Source: an uncultured Bacteroidales bacterium (lineage in GTDB: Bacteria; Bacteroidota; Bacteroidia; Bacteroidales; UBA932). Taken from it: a stretch of 52,961 bases of DNA. Positions 3,505 to 31,211 of this stretch are shown here, piece by piece. The stretch covers positions 1 through 52,961 of the forward strand of contig CALUTT010000001.1 of NCBI GenBank assembly GCA_944323775.1, given 5' to 3'. Made by a program: the position numbers and the translations under genes. Every line of letters starts with the position of its first letter. Position 1 is the stretch's first letter. The notes beneath the pieces were generated by a model that saw nothing but the letters and a program-made list of their open reading frames with translations, was not told the DNA's origin and searched no databases.

Positions 3505-4962
3505 TCACGCAGCCTTGGGGAAAGGGAACAGATATGTAAGCATCAGGTATGAAAGGATCAGTCCTACGACACCGATGATAATGCCAAGCTTTGCCATCTG
3601 GTTCGTCTTTACGAGACCGGTTGATGCCGCAATGGCATTCGGAGGGGTCGAAATAGGGAACAGCATGGCGAGCGACGCACACATGGCCACATAAGGGATA
3701 AGGGCCTCCATTCCGCCTATGCTCTCGAACTGAGCGTGGTTCGCGGAAGCGGGATCGTCAAGGGCAAGACCCACAACTATCAGGATAGGGATAAGCAGCG
3801 CGGCAGTCGCGGAATTGCTTATGAAGTTCGACAGAGCGTAGCAGATGAGTCCGGCAACAAGCATAACGACGACCACATTCATCTGGCTGAAAGGTATCGC
3901 GTTGATCAAAGTGGCGGCCAGGCCGGTCTCGTTGAGTCCGGTACCGAGGGCGAAGCCTCCCGCAACAAGCCACAGGACACTCCAGTTGATTTCAGAAATG
4001 TATTCTTTCTTGAATATTCCGGTACATGTATATACCGCAAGAGGGATGAGGGCGACGATGTTGGAGTTGATTCCTGTAACGGCCTCGGTAGCCCAGAGAA
4101 TGATGGTCAGGAAGAAAGTAATCCATGCAACATAAGTTCTCCAGTCAGATTTCTTTGCCTGCGTCTCGATCTTGATTGTCACGGTCTTGCTCTTGAAAGG
4201 GAAGAAGACCAGCAGCAGGGCCCATGCGATGAGCATCATGACAAGCACGAAAGGAACCATGCGTGACATCCATACGGCAAAGTCAATCCTGTATCCTGCA
4301 TTCTCGAGAGCACCTATCGCAATGGCATTCGGAGGAGTTCCGATAGGAGTGCCTATACCTCCGAGATTCGCCGCAATCGGGATTGACAGGGCCAGACCCA
4401 CCTTTCCGGGTTCATCCTCGGGAAGGCTTTTGAGAACGGGGGCAAGGAACGCAAGCATCATCGCTGCCGTCGCCGTATTGCTCATGAACATCGAGAACAG
4501 GCTGATGACGATGAGGAAGCCCAGAAGGACGAACTTGGACTTGTTTCCGAAAAGTCCGAGAAGCAGCTTGGCTATTGCAGCATCCATTCCGTATTTGGAT
4601 GCAATGATCGCAAGCACGAAGCCTCCGAGGAAAAGCATTACGACAGGATCGGCGAATGAGGCCATAATGTCCTTGTAGCCGATCAGAGAGCCGTACTGCG
4701 GATCGCACAGCAACCTGATACCCTTGTCGGATACCGTCAGAAGCATTATGACAATGACAAGAAGAGATGTGGTCCAGTTGGGGATGACCTCGAAGATCCA
4801 CATGAGCGCGGCGAATATGAAAATTGCGATCATTCGCTGCTGGACAACGGTGAGGGCCTCAATTCCGAAGAATTCGACCGGAACCACCCATAGAAATACC
4901 GTTATGACCAGAGTCAAGGTCAGAAGAACGATATTCCTGACAGAGAAACTTTGTGTTGACAT
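3505..4962 (-). CDS. DASS (SLC13) family sodium-coupled anion symporter
   Basis: A 485-residue inner-membrane transporter with about 11 hydrophobic segments. It has the two inverted-repeat signatures of the divalent anion:sodium symporter family: SNTATA (161-166) with GTPPNAIA (208-215), and SNSATA (382-387) with STPPNAIA (438-445). In VcINDY-type proteins these SNT/TPP motifs bind the carboxylate substrate and sodium. Likely substrates are C4-dicarboxylates or citrate, but sulfate or phosphate cannot be excluded from sequence alone. The gene heads a two-gene operon with the porin downstream. Confidence 0.92.
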   Translation of the reverse strand: MSTQSFSVRNIVLLTLTLVITVFLWVVPVEFFGIEALTVVQQRMIAIFIFAALMWIFEVIPNWTTSLLVIVIMLLTVSDKGIRLLCDPQYGSLIGYKDIMASFADPVVMLFLGGFVLAIIASKYGMDAAIAKLLLGLFGNKSKFVLLGFLIVISLFSMFMSNTATAAMMLAFLAPVLKSLPEDEPGKVGLALSIPIAANLGGIGTPIGTPPNAIAIGALENAGYRIDFAVWMSRMVPFVLVMMLIAWALLLVFFPFKSKTVTIKIETQAKKSDWRTYVAWITFFLTIILWATEAVTGINSNIVALIPLAVYTCTGIFKKEYISEINWSVLWLVAGGFALGTGLNETGLAATLINAIPFSQMNVVVVMLVAGLICYALSNFISNSATAALLIPILIVVGLALDDPASANHAQFESIGGMEALIPYVAMCASLAMLFPISTPPNAIAASTGLVKTNQMAKLGIIIGVVGLILSYLMLTYLFPFPKAA

Positions 4963-6169: not shown

Positions 6170-7633
6170 TTAAAAATTATAGCCGAATTTCAATCCTGCG
6201 CTCCACCGCATGTTACCGGGGAGCAGATTCACCTTGAAAGCGCGCACGAGCCCCCCGTCGGCAGATATGAAACAGCCTCCAGGGAAATTGAACCTCAGTT
6301 CAGCCCCGGCCAGGACCCTCGGCGCGGTCTCGTACTCGCACGCGTAAGCATACAGATCATCCATTCTGCCTGAAGCCTTGGAGAATTCGACGGTCTCCCC
6401 TGCATACCATCCGAGACGCGGACTTATTTCAAACAGCCATGCGCGCAGCCTCGCCTCCACCCCGACAAGCACCGACCGCAACTCCTGGGAAGCAGTCTCC
6501 GGATACTTCGGCAGGACCAGACTCTGGCGGTCACTGAACTCGACCGACGGACGGATCTCAAAAGCCGGTGCGAGATACTCGTATTCAAGCGCGAGATTCA
6601 GACGGTTGCTCGAGAACAGGCGGTTGCTCGCATATTCCACCGTGTTGATTACTCCGCCCTCGGCAACCTTGTCAAGCACACTCTCTCTGTTATTGATGCG
6701 GGACCAGCCGAATCTGCTGCGCAGGGTATGCCTTCCTGCACGGAAGTCAAGCCTGGCCTCGGCGCCTGGACCTTCATACCTGTACCACACAGTCTGCTTT
6801 TCCCCCACTTTCCCCTTGAGATACGAAAAGCTCACGTCCGCATACAGACGGTTGCCGTATCCGGCCTGGAGGGCGACGCCAAGAGAATTCTGGGAGACAG
6901 GCAGGCCGATACCCGATTCGGAAAGCCTCGTACCGCTTCCGGTCCAGACCTGATAGTTGCCGTAGTACAGTCCCTCGTTGAAGAACGCGAAAGGAGCGGT
7001 CTGCGTGGAACCTATCTGCTCGGCGTCTATGCTCTCGGTATTCCTCACATACACCAGTGACAGTCCGGTGCTGAACTTGCCGGCCACATACAGGAGCGAC
7101 GGGGCGAATTCCAGATCGAGACAATATCCCGTGTACCTGAGATCCTTGCGTTTTGCAGCATTAGCGCTCAGGAAGTTCATGGATGCGCCGACCAGCCAGC
7201 GGTCCGAGAGAGGGACCGAGATTCCCCCGCCGAGGGAATATTTCTGGAACGACTTCCGTCCTGGAGTGAATTCCATGACATCCACGGGGAAAAAGCCGGG
7301 ACGCATGAACATCGAACCGCACATGTCGTAAGCCTCTACATCGCTGAATCCGAAACTGCCGCGGAGCGAGAATTTCTCAAGCTGGGTCACGGCACGCGCC
7401 AGCACGTCAGCGCCCCACTGAGACGATGACTGGTCATAACTGCGGAATGATCCCGTCTCATAGGAGGCCCCGATCGCAACATCTGCATAGCTGAGCGTAT
7501 CCAGGCGGATGGCGGCAACATTGGAGCCGTCATTCCAGAGATTGTTCCTCTCAAGACGTTCATAGCGCAGCGTCTGCGCCTGCGCTGCCGCGCACACGGA
7601 AAGGCATGCGACAACGGCAATATGCCTAATCAT
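6170..7633 (-). CDS. DUF6850-like outer-membrane beta-barrel protein
   Basis: A 487-residue protein starting at the ATG at 7633 (MIRHIAVVACL), which gives a compact signal peptide cleaved near AQA and an 8-base overlap with the preceding gene; an ATG at 7657 is an alternative. The mature part starts RYERLERNNLWNDGSN and consists of aromatic-rich amphipathic strands ending in KFGYNF, so it is an outer-membrane barrel. The sequence pattern and the position behind a DUF4876-like gene fit the Bacteroidota family DUF6850. Its role is unknown. Together with the receptor and the lipoprotein it forms an outer-membrane set. Confidence 0.7.
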   Translation of the reverse strand: MIRHIAVVACLSVCAAAQAQTLRYERLERNNLWNDGSNVAAIRLDTLSYADVAIGASYETGSFRSYDQSSSQWGADVLARAVTQLEKFSLRGSFGFSDVEAYDMCGSMFMRPGFFPVDVMEFTPGRKSFQKYSLGGGISVPLSDRWLVGASMNFLSANAAKRKDLRYTGYCLDLEFAPSLLYVAGKFSTGLSLVYVRNTESIDAEQIGSTQTAPFAFFNEGLYYGNYQVWTGSGTRLSESGIGLPVSQNSLGVALQAGYGNRLYADVSFSYLKGKVGEKQTVWYRYEGPGAEARLDFRAGRHTLRSRFGWSRINNRESVLDKVAEGGVINTVEYASNRLFSSNRLNLALEYEYLAPAFEIRPSVEFSDRQSLVLPKYPETASQELRSVLVGVEARLRAWLFEISPRLGWYAGETVEFSKASGRMDDLYAYACEYETAPRVLAGAELRFNFPGGCFISADGGLVRAFKVNLLPGNMRWSAGLKFGYNF

Positions 7634-8834
7634 GCAGTGACTGAGTATCCCTTTCATAAAAGTCCTCCAAACTGTCGTTAGTGTCCATCAGTACTTCATA
7701 TCCCGCCTCGAGGGATGCCTGTTCGTCCGTACGGCGCATAAGCGTATGCCCCTCGTATGTCTTCGAAAGCGTAACGTATGAGGCATCTATGGCTGAGTTC
7801 AGACGTTTCTTGTTTGAGGAGGACTCGCCGTTGAAGACCTCCACTCCGTCCATGACCCATTCCACCGGAAGCCGTACGACACGGTCTCTCGAGCTTCCCG
7901 GTTTCTGGATGACATTCTCGCTCCTGGACACGAACTCCTGTATAGTCTCGCCCTCAGCCTTGAAAATCACGAGCGCCGGCGAATTCAGTGAAAATGTGTA
8001 GGCATTGGACTGGCCGGTCTTTATCACGACCTGAAGATAGCGAGCCTTGTCGACGTTGTTTCCCGGAGCCGGATGGTACATCGTGTTCGGGAAGTATGTA
8101 GGGTTGTAGCAGACAAAGGCATCGGAACGGTTCAGGTTCACGGACATGGGATAGTATGCACTGTGGTCAATGGCACCGAAAACCACGACAAGCGCATCTT
8201 CGCCCGGTTCAAGAGGGAAGGTCTGCCCGTCTCCCGGGAACTGCCATACAGCCTGTATAATCGGCACGAAATCGGCATCCGCATCCCAAACCGAAGCTGA
8301 ATTGGAATTGTACGGATCAAGCGTGCCGAAGCAGAGACTGTCAAGGTACACCATATGCGAAGAGTTGTTGTGAAGCAGAAAATATGAGTCTGTCTGATAT
8401 GTACCCTCATGGGGCGTCTTCAGACATCCCCCGCAATACACCTCCTTGATCACTATGTCCGAGAGTCTGAGTTTCGACAGAGTGATACTGCAGTCAGTGT
8501 CGGATCCTCCGATAATTATGCTCCCGGTACTGCCGCCATAGCGGTACTCGCCTGCGGCGACACTCGCCGACGCCATGTACACTCCGTTCGGAAGCACCGC
8601 CGAAGCCTTGCCGGCTGCATCACAGGAAGCTGAATATTCTGCGTCGCTGTTGACTTCACGCAACCTTACCGTAACTCCGGTAAAATCAGGCACATCGTCT
8701 CCTTCGGGCACGAGCAGTTCGACTGTAAGCAGGTGGAGATCACCGGCGTACGGGTCGCCTCCGTTCATTTCGAGGCATGACTGGCACATGACAGCTGCCA
8801 GCAGCGGCATGCAATATGATATTATTCTTCTCAT
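7626..8834 (-). CDS. DUF4876-like lipoprotein
   Basis: A 402-residue lipoprotein (MRRIISY..., Cys of CQSC at about residues 18-21). It starts at the ATG at 8834, which overlaps the stop codon of the receptor gene as ATGA, so translation is coupled. Residues 30-120 look like a carboxypeptidase-regulatory or Ig-like domain (FTGVTVRLREVNSD). The rest contains IVIKEVYCGGC and an extended FLLHNNSSHMVYLDSLCFG region like a lamin-tail type beta-sandwich, as known for DUF4876. Cysteines and histidines (YCGGC, DHSAYY, MYHPAPG) could bind a metal, but this is speculation. The gene is the partner lipoprotein of the TonB-dependent receptor. Confidence 0.7.
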   Translation of the reverse strand: MRRIISYCMPLLAAVMCQSCLEMNGGDPYAGDLHLLTVELLVPEGDDVPDFTGVTVRLREVNSDAEYSASCDAAGKASAVLPNGVYMASASVAAGEYRYGGSTGSIIIGGSDTDCSITLSKLRLSDIVIKEVYCGGCLKTPHEGTYQTDSYFLLHNNSSHMVYLDSLCFGTLDPYNSNSASVWDADADFVPIIQAVWQFPGDGQTFPLEPGEDALVVVFGAIDHSAYYPMSVNLNRSDAFVCYNPTYFPNTMYHPAPGNNVDKARYLQVVIKTGQSNAYTFSLNSPALVIFKAEGETIQEFVSRSENVIQKPGSSRDRVVRLPVEWVMDGVEVFNGESSSNKKRLNSAIDASYVTLSKTYEGHTLMRRTDEQASLEAGYEVLMDTNDSLEDFYERDTQSLHD

Positions 8835-11479
8835 AGCTTTATCCTGCAAGTAAGTCCATAATAGAATGCGGGAGTGAATATGGCAGCCACGCCTGTCGCC
8901 ATCGAAACCACATAAGGCCGCGCATTCGTGAAGTTGTTGGCAAAGAACGACAGACTCACGGCATCACCTATCTCCTTCGTTACACTGAGATTGGCAGATG
9001 CATATGCACCGTATCCGTCCTGGTCGAACAGATAGTCGTTCGTAGGCCGGATGACAAGGTCCATGAATTCATCCTGATCCTTGTTGCGCTCCGTGAAAGG
9101 ATGCAGCACCGAGCCTCCGTCCTCGACGCTCAAGTAAGCGTCAGGATACATGACATCGGTAGCTCCGGCCGGAAGGTTGCGGGACCTTGTGAACAGGGAA
9201 GCCTCCAGACGCAGCGTTATAACGAGTCTGGCCTCCGGAATATGCGTTATGGACGTCAGGTTGGCGTTCAGGGACGAACTCACCTCCCCGCGTATCATCA
9301 GGTTGTTGTTTCCTCCGTTGGCATACACTCCGACATATGGATAAGAGCGCGAAGGAATCGAGGGATGCGACCACCCGATGTTGTAATAGTAATAGGGCGA
9401 GGAGTCGTCCGTCCTGCTCCAGCCATATGCCGCATCCAGACGGAATGAAGTCCTCAGAGGCCTTATCTGAGGGAAGTCCACCGTCAGCTCGGCACCTGCC
9501 CTGTAGACCGGAGCTCCGTTGTCCTGGCGGCTGACCGCAACGAATGTCTTGTCCGTCACGCCGTCCCGGTCCAGCTCGAGATAGGTGTAGCTGTTGGAGA
9601 ACTTGTATGGGTTGCGCGTAATGTTGCAGTAACCCACGAGCGACATGGACAGACCTGCGAAGGCCGCGTCAATGCCGACCTCGGCATTCTCGTTGCGCTG
9701 CCATTTCAGGTCCGGATTGTACTCAATAGGGCACGGCATGGTATAGTACCTGTAATAGAGCTGGTCATCCTCATATCCGCTGGAGACAAGAATGTCCCTG
9801 TACTGAGGCTTCGGATAGAGAATATAGAAGGAGGGCAGCTTCTCGGCGAGGCCCCATCCTGCCCTGAGCGAAAGATGCTCGGAAAAGTCATACCTGACGT
9901 TCAGGCGGGGAGAAAAAGAGCCCAGATTGGTGTAGCGCGTGCCTTTGACGAACACCCTGTCATATCTTATTCCAGCCGTAAACCTTAGACCGAACGGGAA
10001 TGTAAAATCTTCCTCGGCATAAGCCGACACGGTATGCATGAACGGATATTCCGAATAGTCTCTCGGGCGGAAGCCGTTCGCAGCAAGGTCAGGGTCAAGA
10101 TAGTACTCGCCCTTGCCTACGTTCCCGGAAGACTTCCACTGAAGTCCGGCCTTCAGCGCACTGCGCATGTCGTCCCACCTGTAGTTGAACGTATACTTGA
10201 GCGAACCTCCGAAATCAAGCTCCTTGGAATCGACCATCGCGTCCGAATAGTATTCACCCTCGGGGAGCAGCACTGCGATGCTGTATCCTTCGGACTCGTT
10301 ATGTACCGCAGGGAGCATCGATGCCGATGAATTGTACTTGTGGACATGCGAAAGATTGTCGGCGTAATTCACGTACGCGTCGGCGCTCAGGTTCGTTATC
10401 CAAGGCCTGTTCACGAGCCATGTCAGGGACGTGTTGGCCCTGAAAGCGTTGTCTCTGGTCTTGGAATACTCTCCCTTGAATGCATCCGGATCATCCTTGC
10501 TGTCCATTCCGCCTATGTTGCCGTTGACACCTAGCTCAAAACGGAGATTGCTCCCGAACGTGTTGGAAAGGACCGCGCCTATCCCGCGCCTGGTATATGA
10601 CTCATATGGAGACGTCAGGTTCTTGGTTGCATTGGCCCATTCGGCACTCAGGTTGAGAATCCCGGCCTTGGCCCCGAGGTCGATGCCCTTGGACAATGAA
10701 GTCTGCCAGGTCCTGGGATTGACGGCAAAGGTGACGCTCAGAGGGGAACGGCCTCTCTTGGTGCGGATCTTCACCATCCCGCTTCCCAGGTCGCCGTATT
10801 CGGCGGACGGTACACCGGAAATCACCTCGACTGACTCCACGTTGTCCACTGCTATGCTCCTCGTGTCCACTCCGGACATCTCGGCAAAGCCGGCATTGTT
10901 GCCGATACGGACTCCGTCGACCTCCACTGCCGTTGAAAAAGCGGCGTTTCCCGCTGAACTTCCACCGGAACGGACCGAAAAGCTCGATGCAGATGTCAGG
11001 TCCGGATTGGCAGTCTTTCCTCCGGGGAGCAATGCCGACATGTCGGTCATGTTGCTGAGCTGCAGATGGTCCAGCGCATTGCGGCCTATGTCGTGCGTGG
11101 TACCGATTCCGTCTTTCGGACGCTGTGCCGTCACGACCACCTCGGACAACGCAAGGCTGCTCTGCTTCATCCGGATCTCGATTCCCGAAACATCCGAAGT
11201 CACCTTGATATCCACAGAAGCGTCGACGTAACCCAGAAGAGATGATGCAAGAGTGTACTCTCCCGCCTGGATTCTGTCCAGTTCGAAACATCCGTCTTCG
11301 CCGGTTATCGCCCAGATTTCGTCAATATTGACCACGGCTCCCGGGAGAGGCTCGCCGGTAGCGGCGTCACAGACCTTGCCACTTACGCTGAAACTCTGCG
11401 TGGCGGCAGCACAATGCACTTCACCGGCTGCCATCGCTGCCATAAGCAGCACTGATAATACCAATTGGCCGCTATGCAT
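8831..11479 (-). CDS. TonB-dependent receptor with N-terminal carboxypeptidase-like domain
   Basis: An 882-residue outer-membrane active transporter. After the signal peptide (cleaved near CAAAT at about 26) comes a carboxypeptidase-regulatory-like domain (FSVSGKVCDAATGEPLPGAVV, about 30-110). The plug follows, with a TonB-box-like stretch (SEVVVTAQRP) and the strands SFSVRSGG and VESVEVISGVPSAEYGDLGSGMVKI. The beta-barrel runs from about residue 240 to the end. At 882 residues it is shorter than SusC proteins and is not paired with SusD, so a small ligand (metal complex, siderophore, cofactor or peptide) is more likely than a glycan. It is the first gene of a four-gene operon and has its own promoter. 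Confidence 0.92.
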   Translation of the reverse strand: MHSGQLVLSVLLMAAMAAGEVHCAAATQSFSVSGKVCDAATGEPLPGAVVNIDEIWAITGEDGCFELDRIQAGEYTLASSLLGYVDASVDIKVTSDVSGIEIRMKQSSLALSEVVVTAQRPKDGIGTTHDIGRNALDHLQLSNMTDMSALLPGGKTANPDLTSASSFSVRSGGSSAGNAAFSTAVEVDGVRIGNNAGFAEMSGVDTRSIAVDNVESVEVISGVPSAEYGDLGSGMVKIRTKRGRSPLSVTFAVNPRTWQTSLSKGIDLGAKAGILNLSAEWANATKNLTSPYESYTRRGIGAVLSNTFGSNLRFELGVNGNIGGMDSKDDPDAFKGEYSKTRDNAFRANTSLTWLVNRPWITNLSADAYVNYADNLSHVHKYNSSASMLPAVHNESEGYSIAVLLPEGEYYSDAMVDSKELDFGGSLKYTFNYRWDDMRSALKAGLQWKSSGNVGKGEYYLDPDLAANGFRPRDYSEYPFMHTVSAYAEEDFTFPFGLRFTAGIRYDRVFVKGTRYTNLGSFSPRLNVRYDFSEHLSLRAGWGLAEKLPSFYILYPKPQYRDILVSSGYEDDQLYYRYYTMPCPIEYNPDLKWQRNENAEVGIDAAFAGLSMSLVGYCNITRNPYKFSNSYTYLELDRDGVTDKTFVAVSRQDNGAPVYRAGAELTVDFPQIRPLRTSFRLDAAYGWSRTDDSSPYYYYNIGWSHPSIPSRSYPYVGVYANGGNNNLMIRGEVSSSLNANLTSITHIPEARLVITLRLEASLFTRSRNLPAGATDVMYPDAYLSVEDGGSVLHPFTERNKDQDEFMDLVIRPTNDYLFDQDGYGAYASANLSVTKEIGDAVSLSFFANNFTNARPYVVSMATGVAAIFTPAFYYGLTCRIKL

Positions 11480-11538: not shown

Positions 11539-11585
11539 TGCACAACGGCAAAATTCATTATTTTTAGGTATTCTGCTAGCTTGTG

Positions 11586-11642: not shown

Positions 11643-14600
11643 ATGAAAAAGAAAATTCTCCCAATCCTGCTGTGTCTCTTGCCCGTCTGCGCATCCGCAG
11701 ACGAAGGTATGTGGATGGTCAATTCCATATCGGAAGCGCTGGTCAGGCAGATGCAGGCAGGCGGTCTGGAACTCGCACCCGACGAAATCTACAGCGAAGA
11801 CAAGGCATCGCTCAAGGACGCCATAGTGTCGCTTGACTTCGGCTGCACCGCCAGCATGGTGTCAGACATGGGACTTCTTATCACGAACCACCACTGCGCC
11901 TACTCCGACATACATTCAATAAGCACGGAACAGCACAACTACCTTGAAGACGGCTTCTTCGCCAGGTCAAGGAGCGAAGAGATATACATACCCGGCAAGA
12001 AGGCCTACTTCCTGAAGAAGGTGCTTGACGTCACCGATGAAGTGCAGAGCCTCACGCAGCAGGAGGCCAGTGCCGGAAGACCGCACGGCAGCAGGAAGAT
12101 AAGCAGCCTGATAGAGAAGAAGTATTCAGCCTCTACCGGCTATGAAGCCTCCCTGAGCAGCATGTGGGCCGGATCAAGGTACTACCTTGCACTGTATGAA
12201 GTCTACACTGACGTGAGGCTCGTGGCGGCCCCTCCTGTCAGCATCGCCGCCTTCGGAGGAGACATCGACAACTGGGAGTGGCCGCAGCACAAGTGCGACT
12301 TCGCCCTGTACCGGATCTATGCCGGAAGGGACGGGCGTCCTGCGCCGCACTCTGACGACAATCTGCCTCTCAGGCCAGAGAAGTATCTGCAGATCTGTAC
12401 GGAAGGGGTCCAGCCGGGAGACTTCACAATGATACTCGGCTACCCTGGAAGGACTGCAAGGTATTCTTCGTCAGCCAAGGTGAGGTTCAGGGAGCAGGTC
12501 GAGCTGCCAATAAGCAACAAGGTCCGCGCCGACCAGATGAAGATAATGAAGTCATGGATGGATGCAGATCCGCAGATAAGGCTGAAATATTCTGACAAGT
12601 ACTTTTCACTGAGCAACGTCCAGGAGAACGACGAAGGATTCGTCCAGTGCGTGGAACGTTTCAACGTGCCGTCACGCATCCGAAGTGAGGAGCGCGGGCT
12701 CAGGAGGCAGAACCGTGGACTCATGCGCAAACTCGACAAGGCATACTCCGCCGTCGAGGACATCGAACGGGACCGCATCTATTTCAGGGAGACCATTGTC
12801 CGCGGTTCGCAGCTGGGCATCATAGCCATGAGGCTCAGAAACGCGAGGATACCGGTCGACATGGAGAAACAGTACGCCGAGCTCGACATGCGCGTGGAGA
12901 AAGACCTGTTCAGATATTGTCTCCAGACTTATTTCGAAAACGTCGACAGACGTTTCTGGGGCCCGTTCCAGAAACAGACCTATGCTCTCTACGGCGATGA
13001 CTGGGACGCGATGTGCGACGCCCTCTGGACCGACTCCTACATGACTCGTAATGACGGAATCTACAAATTCTTCACGGATGTCCAGATACGCACTTTCAAC
13101 GATGCCATCGCAGAAGTCGAGAAAGACATGGACCGCACCGACCTTGACAGGGAATATACCAGAGAGAAATACAGGATGGGGCTCAAGTCAGGCATAGCCC
13201 AGTATCCTGACGCGAACTCCACCATGAGGCTCACATTCGGCAAGGTGGGCAGCTACATGCGTGATGGCAAGATGCTGCCCTGGGAGACCCGTGCATCCGG
13301 AATCCTCGAAAAGGAAGACAGTCTCTCATATGACTTCCACCTGCTGCCTGAATGGAAGGCGGAAATAAAGGAGAGCCTGGAGGCTGGGATCGATCCGGCG
13401 GTAGACTTCCTCACCGACAACGACATAACGGGAGGGAACTCCGGCAGTCCAGTCCTGAATGCCAGAGGGCAGATTGTGGGACTGGCGTTCGACGGGAACA
13501 AGGAATCCCTCGCCTCTGACGTATACTGGACTGAAGGATACAACAAATGCGTGAACGTGGACATACGCTTCGTGCTATGGACACTCCGCAACTACATGCA
13601 TGCCGACTATATTCTTGATGAGATGAACATAGACAAGAAAATGACTGAAAATCCGCTTCTTACGGAATCAGCTCTCCCGTACGGGGCCCCACAGTTCGAC
13701 AAAATCAGGACCGAGCACTACCTGCCCGCCTTTGAAGCCGGAATCGCAGAAGGCAAGGCCGAGGTCGATGCCATAGTGAACAACCCCGAACCTCCGACTT
13801 TCGAAAACACCATCGAGGCGCTGGAATTCTCCGGACAGACTCTCGACCATGTAAGCAGTATCTTCTACAATCTGCTTGAGGCCGACACTAATCCGCAGAT
13901 GCAGCAGATCGCCGAGCAGATCGCTCCCATGATGAATGAATACTCGATGTACATATCCCTCAACGACAGGCTTTTCCAAAGAATCCGCGCCGTATGGGAC
14001 ATGAGGGAATCTCTTGAGCTTGACGGTGACCAGGCAAAACTGCTTGAAGACACCTACCTTTCTTTCAGCAGGAACGGAGCCCTGCTGTCGGATGAAGACA
14101 AGAAGACACTCACGGGATACCGTGAAGAACTTTCCCTGCTCTCCCTCGAGTTTTCGAGGAACGTCCTTGCCGCTACCAATGCATGGACACTCAATATCAC
14201 TGACGAGGAGGACCTCGCAGGACTGCCCCAGTTCGTAAGGGACATGGGGGCATCTCTTGCTGAAGAGAAGGGAGTCTCAGGCTGGGTGTTCGACCTGTCG
14301 CAGCCGGTATATTCCGCGTTCATGAAGTATTCGGAACGGCCTGATCTGCGCAAGGAATACTACATCGCATATAATTCGAGAGCCTTCGGAGGACAGTTCG
14401 ACAACAGCGCAGTATGCCGCCGCATAGCGAACCTCAGGCTCCAGACCGCAAAGCTGCTCGGATACCAGAGCTACGACAGCTACGTGCTTGAGGACCGTAT
14501 GGCGAAGACCAGGGACAGGGTTGATTCGCTGATAATGACTCTTATGCGCCCCTCGCTTCCTGCCGCAAGGGATGAAGTCGCCGAGATCCTCTCCTACGCC

Positions 14601-15680
14601 AGGGCCAACGGCTATACGGAAGAAGTAATGCAGCCGTGGGATTTCTCGTTCTGGTCCGAGAAGTACCGCGAAAAGAACTACTCGCTTAGCGACGAGGTGC
14701 TCAAGCCCTACTTCCAGCTTGATGCCTGCATAGACGCAGTGTTCGGACTTGCCACAAAACTTTACGGCCTGCATTTCACGCCGCGCCCGGACATACCGGG
14801 ATACAACCCTGACGTCAGGGTATACGATGTCACGGATTCAGAAGGAAGGCATCTCGCCCTGTTCTACGCCGACTTCTTCCCCCGTGAAAGCAAGCGGGCA
14901 GGCGCGTGGATGACAAGCTTCAGATCCCAGAGCATCCGGGACGGCATCGAGACCCGCCCCATAGTAAGCATAGTGACGAATTTCAGCAAGCCTTCCGGTA
15001 ACGACCCCTCGCTTCTGACCCATTACGAGTTCACGACTCTGCTTCACGAATTCGGTCACTCCCTGCACGCAATCATGGCCAAGGGACGGTATCCGTCCCT
15101 GACCGGTACTAACGTGGCGTGGGACTTCGTCGAGCTGCCGTCACAGATAATGGAAAACTGGGCATACGAGCCGGAATACCTAAAGCCTTTTGCAAAGCAC
15201 TACGTGACCGGAGAGGAAATCCCCGACACCCTGGTGAACAGGCTCGTGGAGTCGCAGAACTACCTTGCGGCGTACTCACAGGTAAGGCAGCTGCACTTCG
15301 GCCTGATAGACCTTGCCTGGAACGCCACTCAGACCCCGATAGAAATCTCCGCCAAAGAACTTGAGACTGCCGCCACGGCTCCATACACGGTTCTTCCCGA
15401 TGTTGCGGAATGCTGCATGTCCACCAGTTTCTCACACATATTCTCAGGTGGATACGCTGCCGGATACTATTCCTACAAGTGGGCGGAAGTGCTGGCGGCA
15501 GACGCTTTCGAAGCATTCCGCGAAGAGGGCATATTCAGCCCAGAGGTCGCGAAGTCCTTCAGGACTAACATACTGGAGAAGGGAGGAAGCGAAGACGAGG
15601 CAGTGATGTACCGCAATTTCCGCGGACATGATCCCGACCCTGACGCATTGCTGGACAAACTTGGAATTAAACACAACTAA
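11643..15680 (+). CDS. Bifunctional S46 dipeptidyl-peptidase / M3 peptidyl-dipeptidase fusion
   Basis: A 1345-residue protein starting at the ATG at 11643 (MKKKILPILL, signal peptide cleaved near ASA). Residues 20 to about 665 form a complete S46 peptidase: TNHHC with the catalytic histidine at 83/84, the conserved GGDIDNWEWP (Asp207) and KCDF (Asp219) region, GGNSGSP with serine 600, and FDGN with Gly618, where DPP7-type enzymes have Gly and DPP11 has Arg. Met667 then begins a complete M3 family metallopeptidase (MTENPLLTESALPYGAPQFD) with HEFGH at 1135-1139. Each half has nearly the length of the free-standing enzyme. Together they would release dipeptides from both ends of peptides in the periplasm. 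Free M3 enzymes may be cytoplasmic, so the fusion changes location. Confidence 0.9.
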   Translation: MKKKILPILLCLLPVCASADEGMWMVNSISEALVRQMQAGGLELAPDEIYSEDKASLKDAIVSLDFGCTASMVSDMGLLITNHHCAYSDIHSISTEQHNYLEDGFFARSRSEEIYIPGKKAYFLKKVLDVTDEVQSLTQQEASAGRPHGSRKISSLIEKKYSASTGYEASLSSMWAGSRYYLALYEVYTDVRLVAAPPVSIAAFGGDIDNWEWPQHKCDFALYRIYAGRDGRPAPHSDDNLPLRPEKYLQICTEGVQPGDFTMILGYPGRTARYSSSAKVRFREQVELPISNKVRADQMKIMKSWMDADPQIRLKYSDKYFSLSNVQENDEGFVQCVERFNVPSRIRSEERGLRRQNRGLMRKLDKAYSAVEDIERDRIYFRETIVRGSQLGIIAMRLRNARIPVDMEKQYAELDMRVEKDLFRYCLQTYFENVDRRFWGPFQKQTYALYGDDWDAMCDALWTDSYMTRNDGIYKFFTDVQIRTFNDAIAEVEKDMDRTDLDREYTREKYRMGLKSGIAQYPDANSTMRLTFGKVGSYMRDGKMLPWETRASGILEKEDSLSYDFHLLPEWKAEIKESLEAGIDPAVDFLTDNDITGGNSGSPVLNARGQIVGLAFDGNKESLASDVYWTEGYNKCVNVDIRFVLWTLRNYMHADYILDEMNIDKKMTENPLLTESALPYGAPQFDKIRTEHYLPAFEAGIAEGKAEVDAIVNNPEPPTFENTIEALEFSGQTLDHVSSIFYNLLEADTNPQMQQIAEQIAPMMNEYSMYISLNDRLFQRIRAVWDMRESLELDGDQAKLLEDTYLSFSRNGALLSDEDKKTLTGYREELSLLSLEFSRNVLAATNAWTLNITDEEDLAGLPQFVRDMGASLAEEKGVSGWVFDLSQPVYSAFMKYSERPDLRKEYYIAYNSRAFGGQFDNSAVCRRIANLRLQTAKLLGYQSYDSYVLEDRMAKTRDRVDSLIMTLMRPSLPAARDEVAEILSYARANGYTEEVMQPWDFSFWSEKYREKNYSLSDEVLKPYFQLDACIDAVFGLATKLYGLHFTPRPDIPGYNPDVRVYDVTDSEGRHLALFYADFFPRESKRAGAWMTSFRSQSIRDGIETRPIVSIVTNFSKPSGNDPSLLTHYEFTTLLHEFGHSLHAIMAKGRYPSLTGTNVAWDFVELPSQIMENWAYEPEYLKPFAKHYVTGEEIPDTLVNRLVESQNYLAAYSQVRQLHFGLIDLAWNATQTPIEISAKELETAATAPYTVLPDVAECCMSTSFSHIFSGGYAAGYYSYKWAEVLAADAFEAFREEGIFSPEVAKSFRTNILEKGGSEDEAVMYRNFRGHDPDPDALLDKLGIKHN

Positions 15681-15693
15681 ACCCTAAGTACCC

Positions 15694-17745
15694 ATGGCCA
15701 AAAAATCAACCATCAAATCCAATTGGCCCAAATATCTCCTCCAGTGGGGAGTGCTGGCGCTGCTGCTGTTTTTCCTCAGCGGGCTCTACACGCTCATATT
15801 CCCTAAGGCAGAGCCTGCCGACCCAGAGAAATACTGTCCCTTCGGAGGTCTTGAGGCACTGGGGACATACCTCGCCAGCGACTCGCTGCCATGCTCGATG
15901 ACATCAGTACAGATTGTAATGGGAATCGTGCTCGCAGCCGCAGTCGTGTTGTTCGGGAAGCTCTTCTGCGCCTTCATATGCCCGATAGGCACTGTGGAAG
16001 ACCTGCTCAAGAAGCTGCGGACGGCTATGGGATTCTCAGGCATCACGATCAGAGAGACAAGCGTTGCCGACAAACTTCTGCGCGCAGTCAAGTACATTCT
16101 GCTTTTCATTGCCTTCAGGATAACGATGGAGACAAGCGAGCTCTTCTGCAAGAACTTCGATCCATACTATGCGACGGCCACAGGTTTCAAGGGCGAGATC
16201 ACGCTATGGATGGCAATAGTGACAGTCGCCGTCGTTGTCGTGCTTGGATTTGTGATAGACCGCTTCTGGTGCAAGTATGTCTGTCCTCTCGGAGCGATAT
16301 CCAATACGCTCAAGTTCTGGGGATGGATAATCCTTACTGTCGCCGTCTACTGGGCTTTGTCCCTGCTTGGCGTCAACCTTCCATGGATATGGCTGCTCGG
16401 AGCACTCTGCGTCGTAGGTTACCTGCTTGAGATTCTGAGCGGAAGACCGAAACTGCAGCTGCTCGGGGTCATTGTCAACGAGACCAGATGCACCCGTTCA
16501 TGCAGGTCATGCACCAAGAACTGCCCCTACGGCATCGATGTGCCCTCATTCAGAGGGAAAGTCAACTCTGTCGACTGCATGCTGTGCGGAGAATGCGTAG
16601 CCGCATGCCCCACAGGCGCGCTGAGCATAGACGTCAAGTCCGGAGGGGATTCAAAGACGACGAGGAAGATAACCAGATTCCTGCCTCCGGTACTCGCGGT
16701 GATACTCGTGGCGGTGGCATATGTGCTTGGCGGACACTTCGAGCTGCCTACGATTGATGTCAAATGGGGCATCACCGACGGCATGAAGATCGAGACTGTG
16801 ACCCTCACCGGCCTCAAATCAGTCAAATGCTACAGCAGCTCCATGGCATTCAAGGCAAAGATGGAGAACGTGGCTGGAGTTCATGGCGTAAAGACATACG
16901 TCGGCAGCCACAGGGTAGTCGTTTCGTTCGACCCGACCAAGACAACGGCAGAGAAGATCCAGGAGCAGGCCTTCGTGCCCTCCAAATTCAGGGTCAGCAG
17001 CCCCGATCCGGCACTTTACCCTGAAGTCAAGGTAATTACCATACGCACCGAGAAGATGTACGACAGGATGGACCTCAACTATCTCGGCATGCAGCTTAGG
17101 CAGACCGACAAGAAGATTTTCGGACTCGAATCGGTATATGACTGTCCTCTTGTTGTCCACATATACATGGCACCGGACGAAACACTGGACGAGGACTGGA
17201 TAAGGGAAATCGTCGAGAAGAAGACGCTCGAGATGCCTGTCAGCGGCGGCGGGGTCAGGGAGATACCTCTCGGCTTCGAGTTCGTGCGTCTCGAGGACGG
17301 AGCGCAGACAATGGCCATCGCAGACTACCTCAGGATGATGTTCGACTCTTTCAGCGCGGAATACAGCGGGAAATACGAGGAAAACGGCCAGACCGTGGTG
17401 CGCAAGCGCAGCGAGGTCTATGCCGGAAAGCCTCAGTGGATATACAGGATTTCGGACCAGAACTACGAGAAGCCGATCATCCTCAGGGGACTCCCCTATC
17501 TGAGCAACCATCTCTCCAAGGAAGAAGGAGTGATCGGCGTATATCTGACTCTGGACGACAATCTCGTGCCTTGCATTGAAGTCCGCTTCGCCGCTCCAAT
17601 GACGGAAGACAGACTCTGGGAACTCATGACTATGGATACCTGGACCATAACTTATTCCGAGGATGACGTGCGCGAGGAGAACGCCAGGATATCCTTCAGC
17701 AAGAAGGGTGTCTGCATCCCGTACGAGAACACGGCCGGCAAATAG
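15694..17745 (+). CDS. NapH/CcoG-like 4Fe-4S membrane protein with C-terminal HMA-like domains
   Basis: A 683-residue protein. The N-terminal half has about six membrane segments with cysteine motifs of the NapH-like polyferredoxins: YCPFGG (Cys48), CAFICPIG (Cys92, 96) and CKYVCPLG (Cys193, 197). Two classical 4Fe-4S clusters follow (Cys266/270/273/277P and Cys295/298/301/305P). After another membrane helix (about 330-346), residues 366-434 resemble a heavy-metal-associated domain in which the GMxCxxC motif has become GLKSVKC, leaving only Cys379. Residues 445-512 and 593-653 look like two further degenerate copies. This suggests membrane electron transfer coupled to a metal- or protein-binding module. 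The gene starts 13 bases after the peptidase gene. Confidence 0.82.
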   Translation: MAKKSTIKSNWPKYLLQWGVLALLLFFLSGLYTLIFPKAEPADPEKYCPFGGLEALGTYLASDSLPCSMTSVQIVMGIVLAAAVVLFGKLFCAFICPIGTVEDLLKKLRTAMGFSGITIRETSVADKLLRAVKYILLFIAFRITMETSELFCKNFDPYYATATGFKGEITLWMAIVTVAVVVVLGFVIDRFWCKYVCPLGAISNTLKFWGWIILTVAVYWALSLLGVNLPWIWLLGALCVVGYLLEILSGRPKLQLLGVIVNETRCTRSCRSCTKNCPYGIDVPSFRGKVNSVDCMLCGECVAACPTGALSIDVKSGGDSKTTRKITRFLPPVLAVILVAVAYVLGGHFELPTIDVKWGITDGMKIETVTLTGLKSVKCYSSSMAFKAKMENVAGVHGVKTYVGSHRVVVSFDPTKTTAEKIQEQAFVPSKFRVSSPDPALYPEVKVITIRTEKMYDRMDLNYLGMQLRQTDKKIFGLESVYDCPLVVHIYMAPDETLDEDWIREIVEKKTLEMPVSGGGVREIPLGFEFVRLEDGAQTMAIADYLRMMFDSFSAEYSGKYEENGQTVVRKRSEVYAGKPQWIYRISDQNYEKPIILRGLPYLSNHLSKEEGVIGVYLTLDDNLVPCIEVRFAAPMTEDRLWELMTMDTWTITYSEDDVREENARISFSKKGVCIPYENTAGK

Positions 17746-29568: not shown

Positions 29569-30720
29569 TCAAGCGTTATTAATGTCCATCAATATTCTCC
29601 TCGAGGCCGGGAGCATGTTGTTGCATCTCCTGCCCAGATTCTTCACAAAGCCCAGAGGCACGGAACGGTAAGTCACCAGAACATATCCTGACGGTGCGTC
29701 AGGAAGTACGATAGTATCTCTGTGAAGATACCGCAGAGCGGTCTGCTTGTCGACATCAGCCTCCGGATATGTGCCGCGCTCGTACTTGATGCTCAGCGCC
29801 CAGTCTGCATCCGGGACAAAATCATGGCCTTTCACAACACCTTTTACCAGTCCCGAGCGCAGAGGCTTCAGTCCGGACAGGTCAGAGCGCGCCGGCATCG
29901 AATCCCCCGCAGTCTTGACCAGAGCTCCGGCCCACTGTCCTTCGCCAGGAACGACCCCGGCCCTGAGCAGAGACCCGTGCCTCGTCAGTCGCACCCCGTA
30001 TTCCGGGAATTCGTCCTCGGCAGCCACGATACTCCCGCCGAGCGTTTCCGCAGCCCATTCCAGGTTATCGTCATTCTCGGCTTCTTCATAAGTACATGTG
30101 CTGTATACAAGCACTCCGCCCTCCCTGAGCGAAGGCCACACATCGGAAAGTATCCTTTTCTGCCTGGCTGCGCAAAGCCTTACCAGGTCTGGGCTCCACT
30201 GTTCGACAGCAACCGCATCCTTGCGGAACATTCCTTCTCCGCTGCATGGGACATCGGCAACTACAATATCGAAAAACGCCCCCAGAGAAGCGAATGCGGC
30301 CGGATCCACACTCGTCACGACCACATTGGGATCCCCCCACCTGGCGACGTTGTCATCCAGGACTCTGGCTCTCTCTCTGACAGGGTCGTTGGAGACCAGG
30401 AGGAAACTGTCGCCGAAGTGTTCGCGCAGCGACGCTGCAATGTCCGTGGTCTTTCCTCCCGGGGCAGCGCACAAGTCCAGAACCCGCACACCCGGCTCCA
30501 TGCGTTCCAGGAACTTCCTGAACACGTGACCCACAAACATCGCGGAACTGTCCTGCACGTAATAGCAGCCCGCATGGAAAAGCGGATGCAGAGTAAATAC
30601 AGGCCTCTCGGCCAGGATTCTCCCGAAACGCGACCATGGCACGGGACTCGAGCCTTCAAGTATCGGCAGCCTGACGCCCTCAGCCTTGAAGGGATTGAGC
30701 CTTATCGAGACAGGTATCAT
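29569..30720 (-). CDS. RsmF/NOP2-like rRNA (cytosine-C5) methyltransferase, short N-terminus
   Basis: A 383-residue SAM-dependent RNA m5C methyltransferase, related to RsmF, which modifies 16S rRNA. The core has LDLCAAPGGKT (82-91), VVADVPCSGEGMF (Cys159) and STCTYEE with the nucleophile Cys209. A C-terminal PUA-like region follows (about 290-383). Family members usually have about 60 further residues before the SIRLNP motif; here the protein starts only three residues before it. The start is firm, because its ATG overlaps the stop of the upstream gene as ATGA. So the N-terminal helical subdomain is absent, not missed. Confidence 0.88.
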   Translation of the reverse strand: MIPVSIRLNPFKAEGVRLPILEGSSPVPWSRFGRILAERPVFTLHPLFHAGCYYVQDSSAMFVGHVFRKFLERMEPGVRVLDLCAAPGGKTTDIAASLREHFGDSFLLVSNDPVRERARVLDDNVARWGDPNVVVTSVDPAAFASLGAFFDIVVADVPCSGEGMFRKDAVAVEQWSPDLVRLCAARQKRILSDVWPSLREGGVLVYSTCTYEEAENDDNLEWAAETLGGSIVAAEDEFPEYGVRLTRHGSLLRAGVVPGEGQWAGALVKTAGDSMPARSDLSGLKPLRSGLVKGVVKGHDFVPDADWALSIKYERGTYPEADVDKQTALRYLHRDTIVLPDAPSGYVLVTYRSVPLGFVKNLGRRCNNMLPASRRILMDINNA

Positions 30721-31157
30721 TTGCGCAGTCCTCCGGGGATGTCCGGCATTCTTCCCTCCGAAATATCAACGAGAGTGTCCACCGCCTTGTCGAGCGCCCC
30801 CTGGATCTTGCCCCCAAGCATCGACTTCATCATGAAATTCAGATTTGCGTCAAGGACGATGCTGAAATCAGTCTTGCCCGGCTCGACCGCAGAGTCAAAA
30901 TGAATGGCTCCTACAAATTCCACGGGAGATTCGGCACTGCTCATCCTTATGAGGCTGTATGGCCTGCGTTCGTCTATTCTGACCGTTATCTTGAAGCTTT
31001 GGACCACTATGGACAGAGAGTCATAGTCCGCAGTTATCTCTGCCTGCACCCCCTCGGGAGCCAGACGCGAAAAGTTGCGCATGTCGCAGAACAACATGTA
31101 CAATTCTTCTGGACGCCGGGAAACGAGTCCGTGTTTGCTGGCATAATGTGCTGTCAT
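30717..31157 (-). CDS. START/SRPBCC-like ligand-binding domain protein
   Basis: A 146-residue single-domain protein with the helix-grip pattern of the SRPBCC (START/Bet v1) superfamily: an N-terminal strand (YASKHGLVSRRPEELYMLFCDMRNF), central antiparallel strands and a long C-terminal helix (GKIQGALDKAVDTLVDI). The domain has a hydrophobic cavity for lipids or other small molecules; the ligand is unknown. It is the first gene of a minus-strand operon and has a promoter that overlaps the divergent NUDIX promoter. Confidence 0.8.
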   Translation of the reverse strand: MTAHYASKHGLVSRRPEELYMLFCDMRNFSRLAPEGVQAEITADYDSLSIVVQSFKITVRIDERRPYSLIRMSSAESPVEFVGAIHFDSAVEPGKTDFSIVLDANLNFMMKSMLGGKIQGALDKAVDTLVDISEGRMPDIPGGLRK

Positions 31158-31184
31158 TGGAATAGGATATTTTTCTTAACTTTG
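31157..31184 (+). promoter_or_regulatory. Promoter of the NUDIX gene
   Basis: TAACTTTG (31177-31184) is a perfect -7 element. TTGG (31157-31160) at a short spacing may serve as the -33 element. The NUDIX start codon is at 31204. Confidence 0.6.
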
Positions 31185-31211
31185 CAAAGATAACAATTTT
31201 CCGATGCACAA
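31185..31211 (-). promoter_or_regulatory. Promoter of the START-RsmF-TPR operon
   Basis: On the minus strand TATCTTTG (31185-31192) is a perfect -7 element that directly abuts the plus-strand -7 element. TTG at 31209-31211 is a possible -33. The start codon is at 31157. Confidence 0.55.

Follow-up and report, generated by a model that had tools for sequence, protein, structure and literature searches.

The window analysed here, a stretch of 52,961 nucleotides from an uncultured Bacteroidales bacterium, carries on its forward strand a single open reading frame of 1345 codons and a stop (11643–15680, +), and the ORF list confirmed the frame given in the preliminary description. We chose the in-frame ATG at 11643 as the start, the frame being open back to a GTG at 11583. 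A putative signal peptide (MKKKILPILLCLLPVCASA, 11643–11699, +) was recognised by eye ahead of DEGMW, and the matches to several solved S46 chains start at query residue 20 or 21. The frame encodes an S46 dipeptidyl-peptidase part of 666 residues (11643–13640, +) followed, with no linker, by an M3 peptidase part of 679 residues (13641–15680, +). In Pfam, the same protein matches PF10459 Peptidase_S46 (5.5e-167) and PF01432 Peptidase_M3 (2.7e-128), and in NCBIfam the S46 part covers positions 9–706 of the 708 in the Dpp7 profile and the M3 part positions 3–680 of the 681 in the Dcp profile. As nearly the whole of both profiles is covered, both parts are full length, which bears out the earlier account: a single chain holds both exopeptidases, each complete, and one putative S46 signal peptide precedes them. 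Both parts fall under the curated equivalog cut-offs (433.6 bits versus 1200 for Dpp7, and 555.6 bits versus 944 for Dcp), and we therefore limit the labels to an S46 enzyme of DPP7 type and an M3 enzyme of Dcp type.

The computed mass of the chain from residue 19 onward is 151.5 kDa. The two halves are alike in composition (GC 0.546 for S46 and 0.548 for M3, with a codon-use correlation of 0.82), and both this likeness and the presence of two complete families in a single frame favour a fusion. Structure prediction for residues 20–1219, from an alignment with only three S46 rows, gave a mean pLDDT of 58; with these rows the S46 half was mostly below 50, and the M3 half was mostly at 70–97 from just past the joint. 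The failure of the prediction to resolve the S46 half was counted against the fusion reading.

Active-site residues are intact in both parts. In two papers (PMC6753110, PMC8048996), the catalytic triad of PgDPP11 is given as His85-Asp227-Ser655, and the S1-site residue Arg673 of DPP11, a Gly in DPP7, as a mark of the subtype. The triad aligns to His84, Asp219 and Ser600 of the fusion, and the residues binding the peptide N-terminus align to Asn210, Trp211, Asn325 and Asp617 (hand count on the PgDPP11 alignment). Gly618 (LAFDGN) stands where DPP11 has Arg673 (LNFDRN), giving a DPP7-type S1 Gly; enzymes of the DPP7 subtype cleave after hydrophobic P1 residues. The full-length S46 domain, the triad, the N-terminus-binding residues and the DPP7-type Gly are all shared with bacterial DPP7/DPP11 (MEROPS S46), whereas the S46 relatives among the matches listed stand alone, in ORFs of about 600–1004 residues, and that of the window carries a C-terminal M3 enzyme. 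In the M3 part, the zinc motif HEXXH is intact (HEFGH, from protein residue 1135), a feature held in common, along with the full-length domain, with Dcp and oligopeptidase A (Pfam M3). The Dcp profile outscores the oligopeptidase A profile here, and among solved structures the best-matching chains belong to K-26 dipeptidyl carboxypeptidase (5l43) and Dcp (1y79).

The junction reads GAC AAG AAA ATG ACT (13632–13646, +). As originally described, the S46 part ends in ILDEMNIDKK and is followed immediately by the ATG at 13641, the preceding codon being AAA (13638–13640); among S46 orthologues, those whose tail is complete finish no more than about 4 residues from this point. A TGA in the +1 frame (13642–13644) overlaps the ATG, and a run of four A spans 13638–13641. 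The junction DNA (400 bases) has a single match in its own genome.

The N-termini of the M3 relatives were compared in a set of 106 distinct proteins, one being that of the window. A lipoprotein-type start, with a lipobox-like Cys shortly before M-x-NPLL, is present in 93 of the 105 relatives (by lipobox pattern, with four rows assigned by eye), and these begin about 20 codons upstream of the window's M3 Met. Only the other 12 are signal-less and start near the equivalent Met, so the M3 start is not, as had been proposed, in the general style of free-standing homologues. The lipoprotein trait of the lineage is missing from the window: the Cys codon is absent, the frame continues into S46, and the M3 N-terminus is tethered to that enzyme. 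The idea that the fusion newly exports the M3 enzyme also fails, since most relatives already have a lipoprotein signal; it would rather swap a lipid anchor for a tether to S46.

The nearest M3 relative is 69–70% identical to the window's M3 part. In a quick tree, in which the window has a long branch, this part is sister to three lipoproteins (L086, L006 and L007; SH-aLRT 94), and three signal-less proteins (L102, L103 and L111; SH-aLRT 93) branch beside this clade. That the sister placement comes from such a tree was counted against the fusion reading. The signal-less state corresponds to three changes on the tree, the other two branches being L039/L042/L049/L051/L054/L056/L076 and L044/L047. 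At the joint, the sister M3 genes read Cys, AAA, ATG, GAA, AAT, CC and the window reads AAG, AAA, ATG, ACT, GAA, AAT, CC. The AAA ATG pair directly follows the Cys codon in all three sisters and also in L087; across the 93 lipoprotein relatives, Lys follows Cys in 29 and the exact AAA ATG is found in 23.

The AAA before the ATG had been taken as a TAA stop codon changed at one base. It need not be a mutated stop, because the nearest M3 relatives read Cys-AAA-ATG at this place, and a stop-codon change is insufficient, because the M3 gene has also lost about 20 signal-peptide codons; we therefore rejected a point mutation as the sole cause. By the sister sequences, the junction AAA can be an old M3 codon, with the Cys being what was lost. 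The S46 orthologue L120 ends in RKK before its stop, and the junction KK may instead be the S46 tail. If AAA was shared by both genes here, it could, speculatively, have guided the joint as a short common stretch. We also scanned the window for remains of the lost M3 signal peptide and found nothing convincing; the top match, at 44% over 34 residues (E 2e-5), was to the junction itself and was taken as the NPLL part plus chance. By eye, one M3 locus (L124) has a promoter-like stretch, TATTTTTGC, directly ahead of its M3 start.

The preliminary description proposed searching for the same architecture and for adjacent separate genes. A 250-residue junction query found no second fusion among the matches listed in a genus sample of 400 genomes (0/399 others), where the own genome alone matched end to end. 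Overlapping samples from the family (398 genomes; 0/397 others) and order (393 genomes; 0/392 others) likewise held no second case. In the family sample, 13 genomes including the window's own passed E 1e-66, and only the window's own spanned the joint fully; in the order sample, 63 including the window's own passed 1e-125, and the others gave M3-side matches in ORFs of 681–790 residues, none reaching more than 25 residues ahead of the joint. These cut-offs would miss more divergent fusions. With the whole protein as query against 200 genus genomes (199 others), there was no second match to both parts among the matches listed. A collection of 84,980 species gave 210 matches, from which 80 loci were retained with flanks of at most 5 kb; none of these loci holds both S46 and M3 (77 have M3 and 3 have S46). 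M3 matches reach 28 residues before the joint, and up to 38 in G175. We considered whether such relatives are hidden fusions and rejected this, as in the loci that were fetched the extra residues come from the relative's own signal peptide and the codons before it. The largest other ORFs among the matches listed, 904 residues with the junction query and 1004 with the whole protein, are too short for both enzymes. A literature search by title and abstract start, with most subscription journals outside its scope, found no S46-M3 fusion. Two common enzymes, each known in itself, are here in a combination found once, and its restriction to one genome was counted against the fusion. At one locus (L115), S46 and M3 lie unfused within about 13 kb.

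The window runs S20-like, porin-like, SLC13, Fib_succ-DUF6850-DUF4876-TonB (minus strand), S46-M3, NapH. The SLC13/CitMHS-type transporter gene (3505–4962, −) has counterparts that stand divergent beside M3 in the three sister genomes, whose loci were paired by contig (L006 with L142, L007 with L133, L086 with L122) and read porin-like, SLC13 (−), M3 (+); an S20-like gene, named by eye, lies past the porin-like gene in L122 and L142. The window keeps this order with an S46 block inserted, TonB/DUF4876/DUF6850/S46 standing between SLC13 and M3. The divergent SLC13/M3 pair recurs in L124, L125 and L126; in L123, SLC13 follows M3 on the same strand; and in nine other M3 regions (L129, L130 and L135–L141) none of the window's neighbour genes was found, M3 excepted. 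The DUF6850-DUF4876-TonB receptor genes (6170–11479, −) lie, in some other genomes, beside S46 or NapH-S46, adjoining the latter in L118, L119 and L120. The NapH-like 4Fe-4S membrane protein gene (15694–17745, +) lies downstream of M3 here and elsewhere runs straight into S46 (L116–L121, L127, L131, L132, L064, L069 and L071); L128 and L134 have NapH with no adjoining S46. At L115 (G194:C2:40000–56000), TonB, accompanied by DUF4876, is divergent from S46, then come FeoB-like and nicotinate phosphoribosyltransferase-like genes (by eye), and the M3 gene stands with NapH on the other strand. These recurring genes (TonB/DUF4876/DUF6850/NapH/S46) may form an island for the uptake of iron or peptides.

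M3 adjoins S46/NapH genes on two separate parts of its tree, a hint that they may be functionally linked. The two sister genomes searched (G175 and G331) have no counterpart of the window's S46 or NapH, the best S46 being 37–38% identical and NapH reaching only E 2e-4 and 4e-7, respectively. The sisters favour the arrival of S46 beside M3. The lack of these genes in G175 and G331 was counted against the fusion reading, as was the finding that SLC13 is not exclusive to M3, being divergent from NapH-S46 in L116, L117 and L121. Because SLC13 adjoins either M3 or NapH-S46, gene order does not decide which set moved. Elsewhere in the window's own genome (G000 C9, C13 and C32) there are two S46 matches (39% and 37%) and one M3 gene (36–39%), and identities of only 36–39% in these other matches favour the fusion. 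That other M3 gene carries its own lipobox-like Cys. Elsewhere in the window, the longest ORFs at 218–1378 and 29722–31193 look unlike real proteins by eye, and these stretches, neither with an Rfam match at gathering score, may hold real genes in another frame or be non-coding.

The strongest competing explanation is that two separate genes overlap by ATGA, S46 ending at the TGA at 13642–13644 and a signal-less, cytosolic M3 enzyme starting at 13641, in which case the fused frame would stem from one base in the four-A run, either miscalled or differing between strains. The +1-frame TGA means that one base would indeed suffice to give two genes, which we counted against the fusion; however, an ATG followed by A always yields such a TGA, and the overlap is weak evidence. 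The 12 signal-less relatives, arising by three changes on the tree with one group adjoining the window's clade, fit this explanation, as do the RKK-stop end of L120 and the A-rich DNA preceding the ATG, but the three nearest sisters are lipoproteins. Moreover, the SLC13, DUF6850, DUF4876, TonB and NapH frames of the window are unbroken, so that indel errors do not look common, and on balance we consider two genes unlikely. The same A-rich stretch and the existence of free-standing signal-less M3 enzymes would also suit a frame that is fused as read and has an additional internal start at 13641, which would place a cytosolic M3 enzyme beside the exported fusion. Translation starts in Bacteroidota prefer A-rich upstream DNA; an internal start here is a conjecture that we rate as somewhat less probable again.

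An assembly chimera of two loci would account for a fusion found once, in a draft assembly of 35 contigs. Set against this, the joint falls in frame at both natural protein boundaries, which makes a random join unlikely, and the junction sequence has just one match in the genome. A single false contig join is further disfavoured by the S46-linked genes on either side of M3, and with the neighbours of both genes interleaved more than one such join would be needed; we regard a chimera as very improbable. The joint sits where S46 naturally ends and mature M3 begins, just past the place of the Cys codon, and this position favours a true fusion by rearrangement, which we consider the likely explanation, present in at least one genome and giving one exported double exopeptidase chain of ~150 kDa.

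In such a fusion, a rearrangement would have placed S46, together with the TonB/DUF4876/DUF6850 genes, directly before M3, and the joint would have deleted, in frame, the stop codon of S46 and, from M3, the start codon, the signal peptide and the lipid-acceptor Cys. The S46 signal peptide would then export the whole ~150 kDa chain to the periplasm as a soluble product, in which the DPP7-type part could trim imported peptides from their N-termini by dipeptides and the M3 part from their C-termini. Fusion would keep the two enzymes equal in amount and close together, and free M3 from the membrane. The machine releasing dipeptides from both ends that the preliminary description envisaged is an inference: it is somewhat short of an even chance that the chain is a single periplasmic exopeptidase attacking the same peptide from both ends, with the lipid anchor of M3 traded for a covalent DPP7 tether and possible hand-over of peptides.

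Dipeptide release by periplasmic DPPs is also a feature of Porphyromonas gingivalis, for which one review (PMC8048996) describes DPPs that make dipeptides for uptake, with DPP7-type enzymes releasing N-terminal dipeptides in the periplasm and Dcp-type enzymes C-terminal ones. The same review regards both Dcp genes of P. gingivalis as lacking a signal and their products as perhaps cytosolic, and considers these enzymes improbable contributors to dipeptide production in the periplasm, whereas the M3 enzyme of the window is predicted to be periplasmic. If the fusion is real, it would join exopeptidases of opposite end preference in one naturally bifunctional protein, and would show that a lipoprotein enzyme can, through loss of its signal peptide, become one domain within a soluble enzyme of the periplasm. 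In contrast to the view of Dcp given for P. gingivalis in that review (PMC8048996), the Dcp-type enzymes of this lineage mostly have lipoprotein signals.
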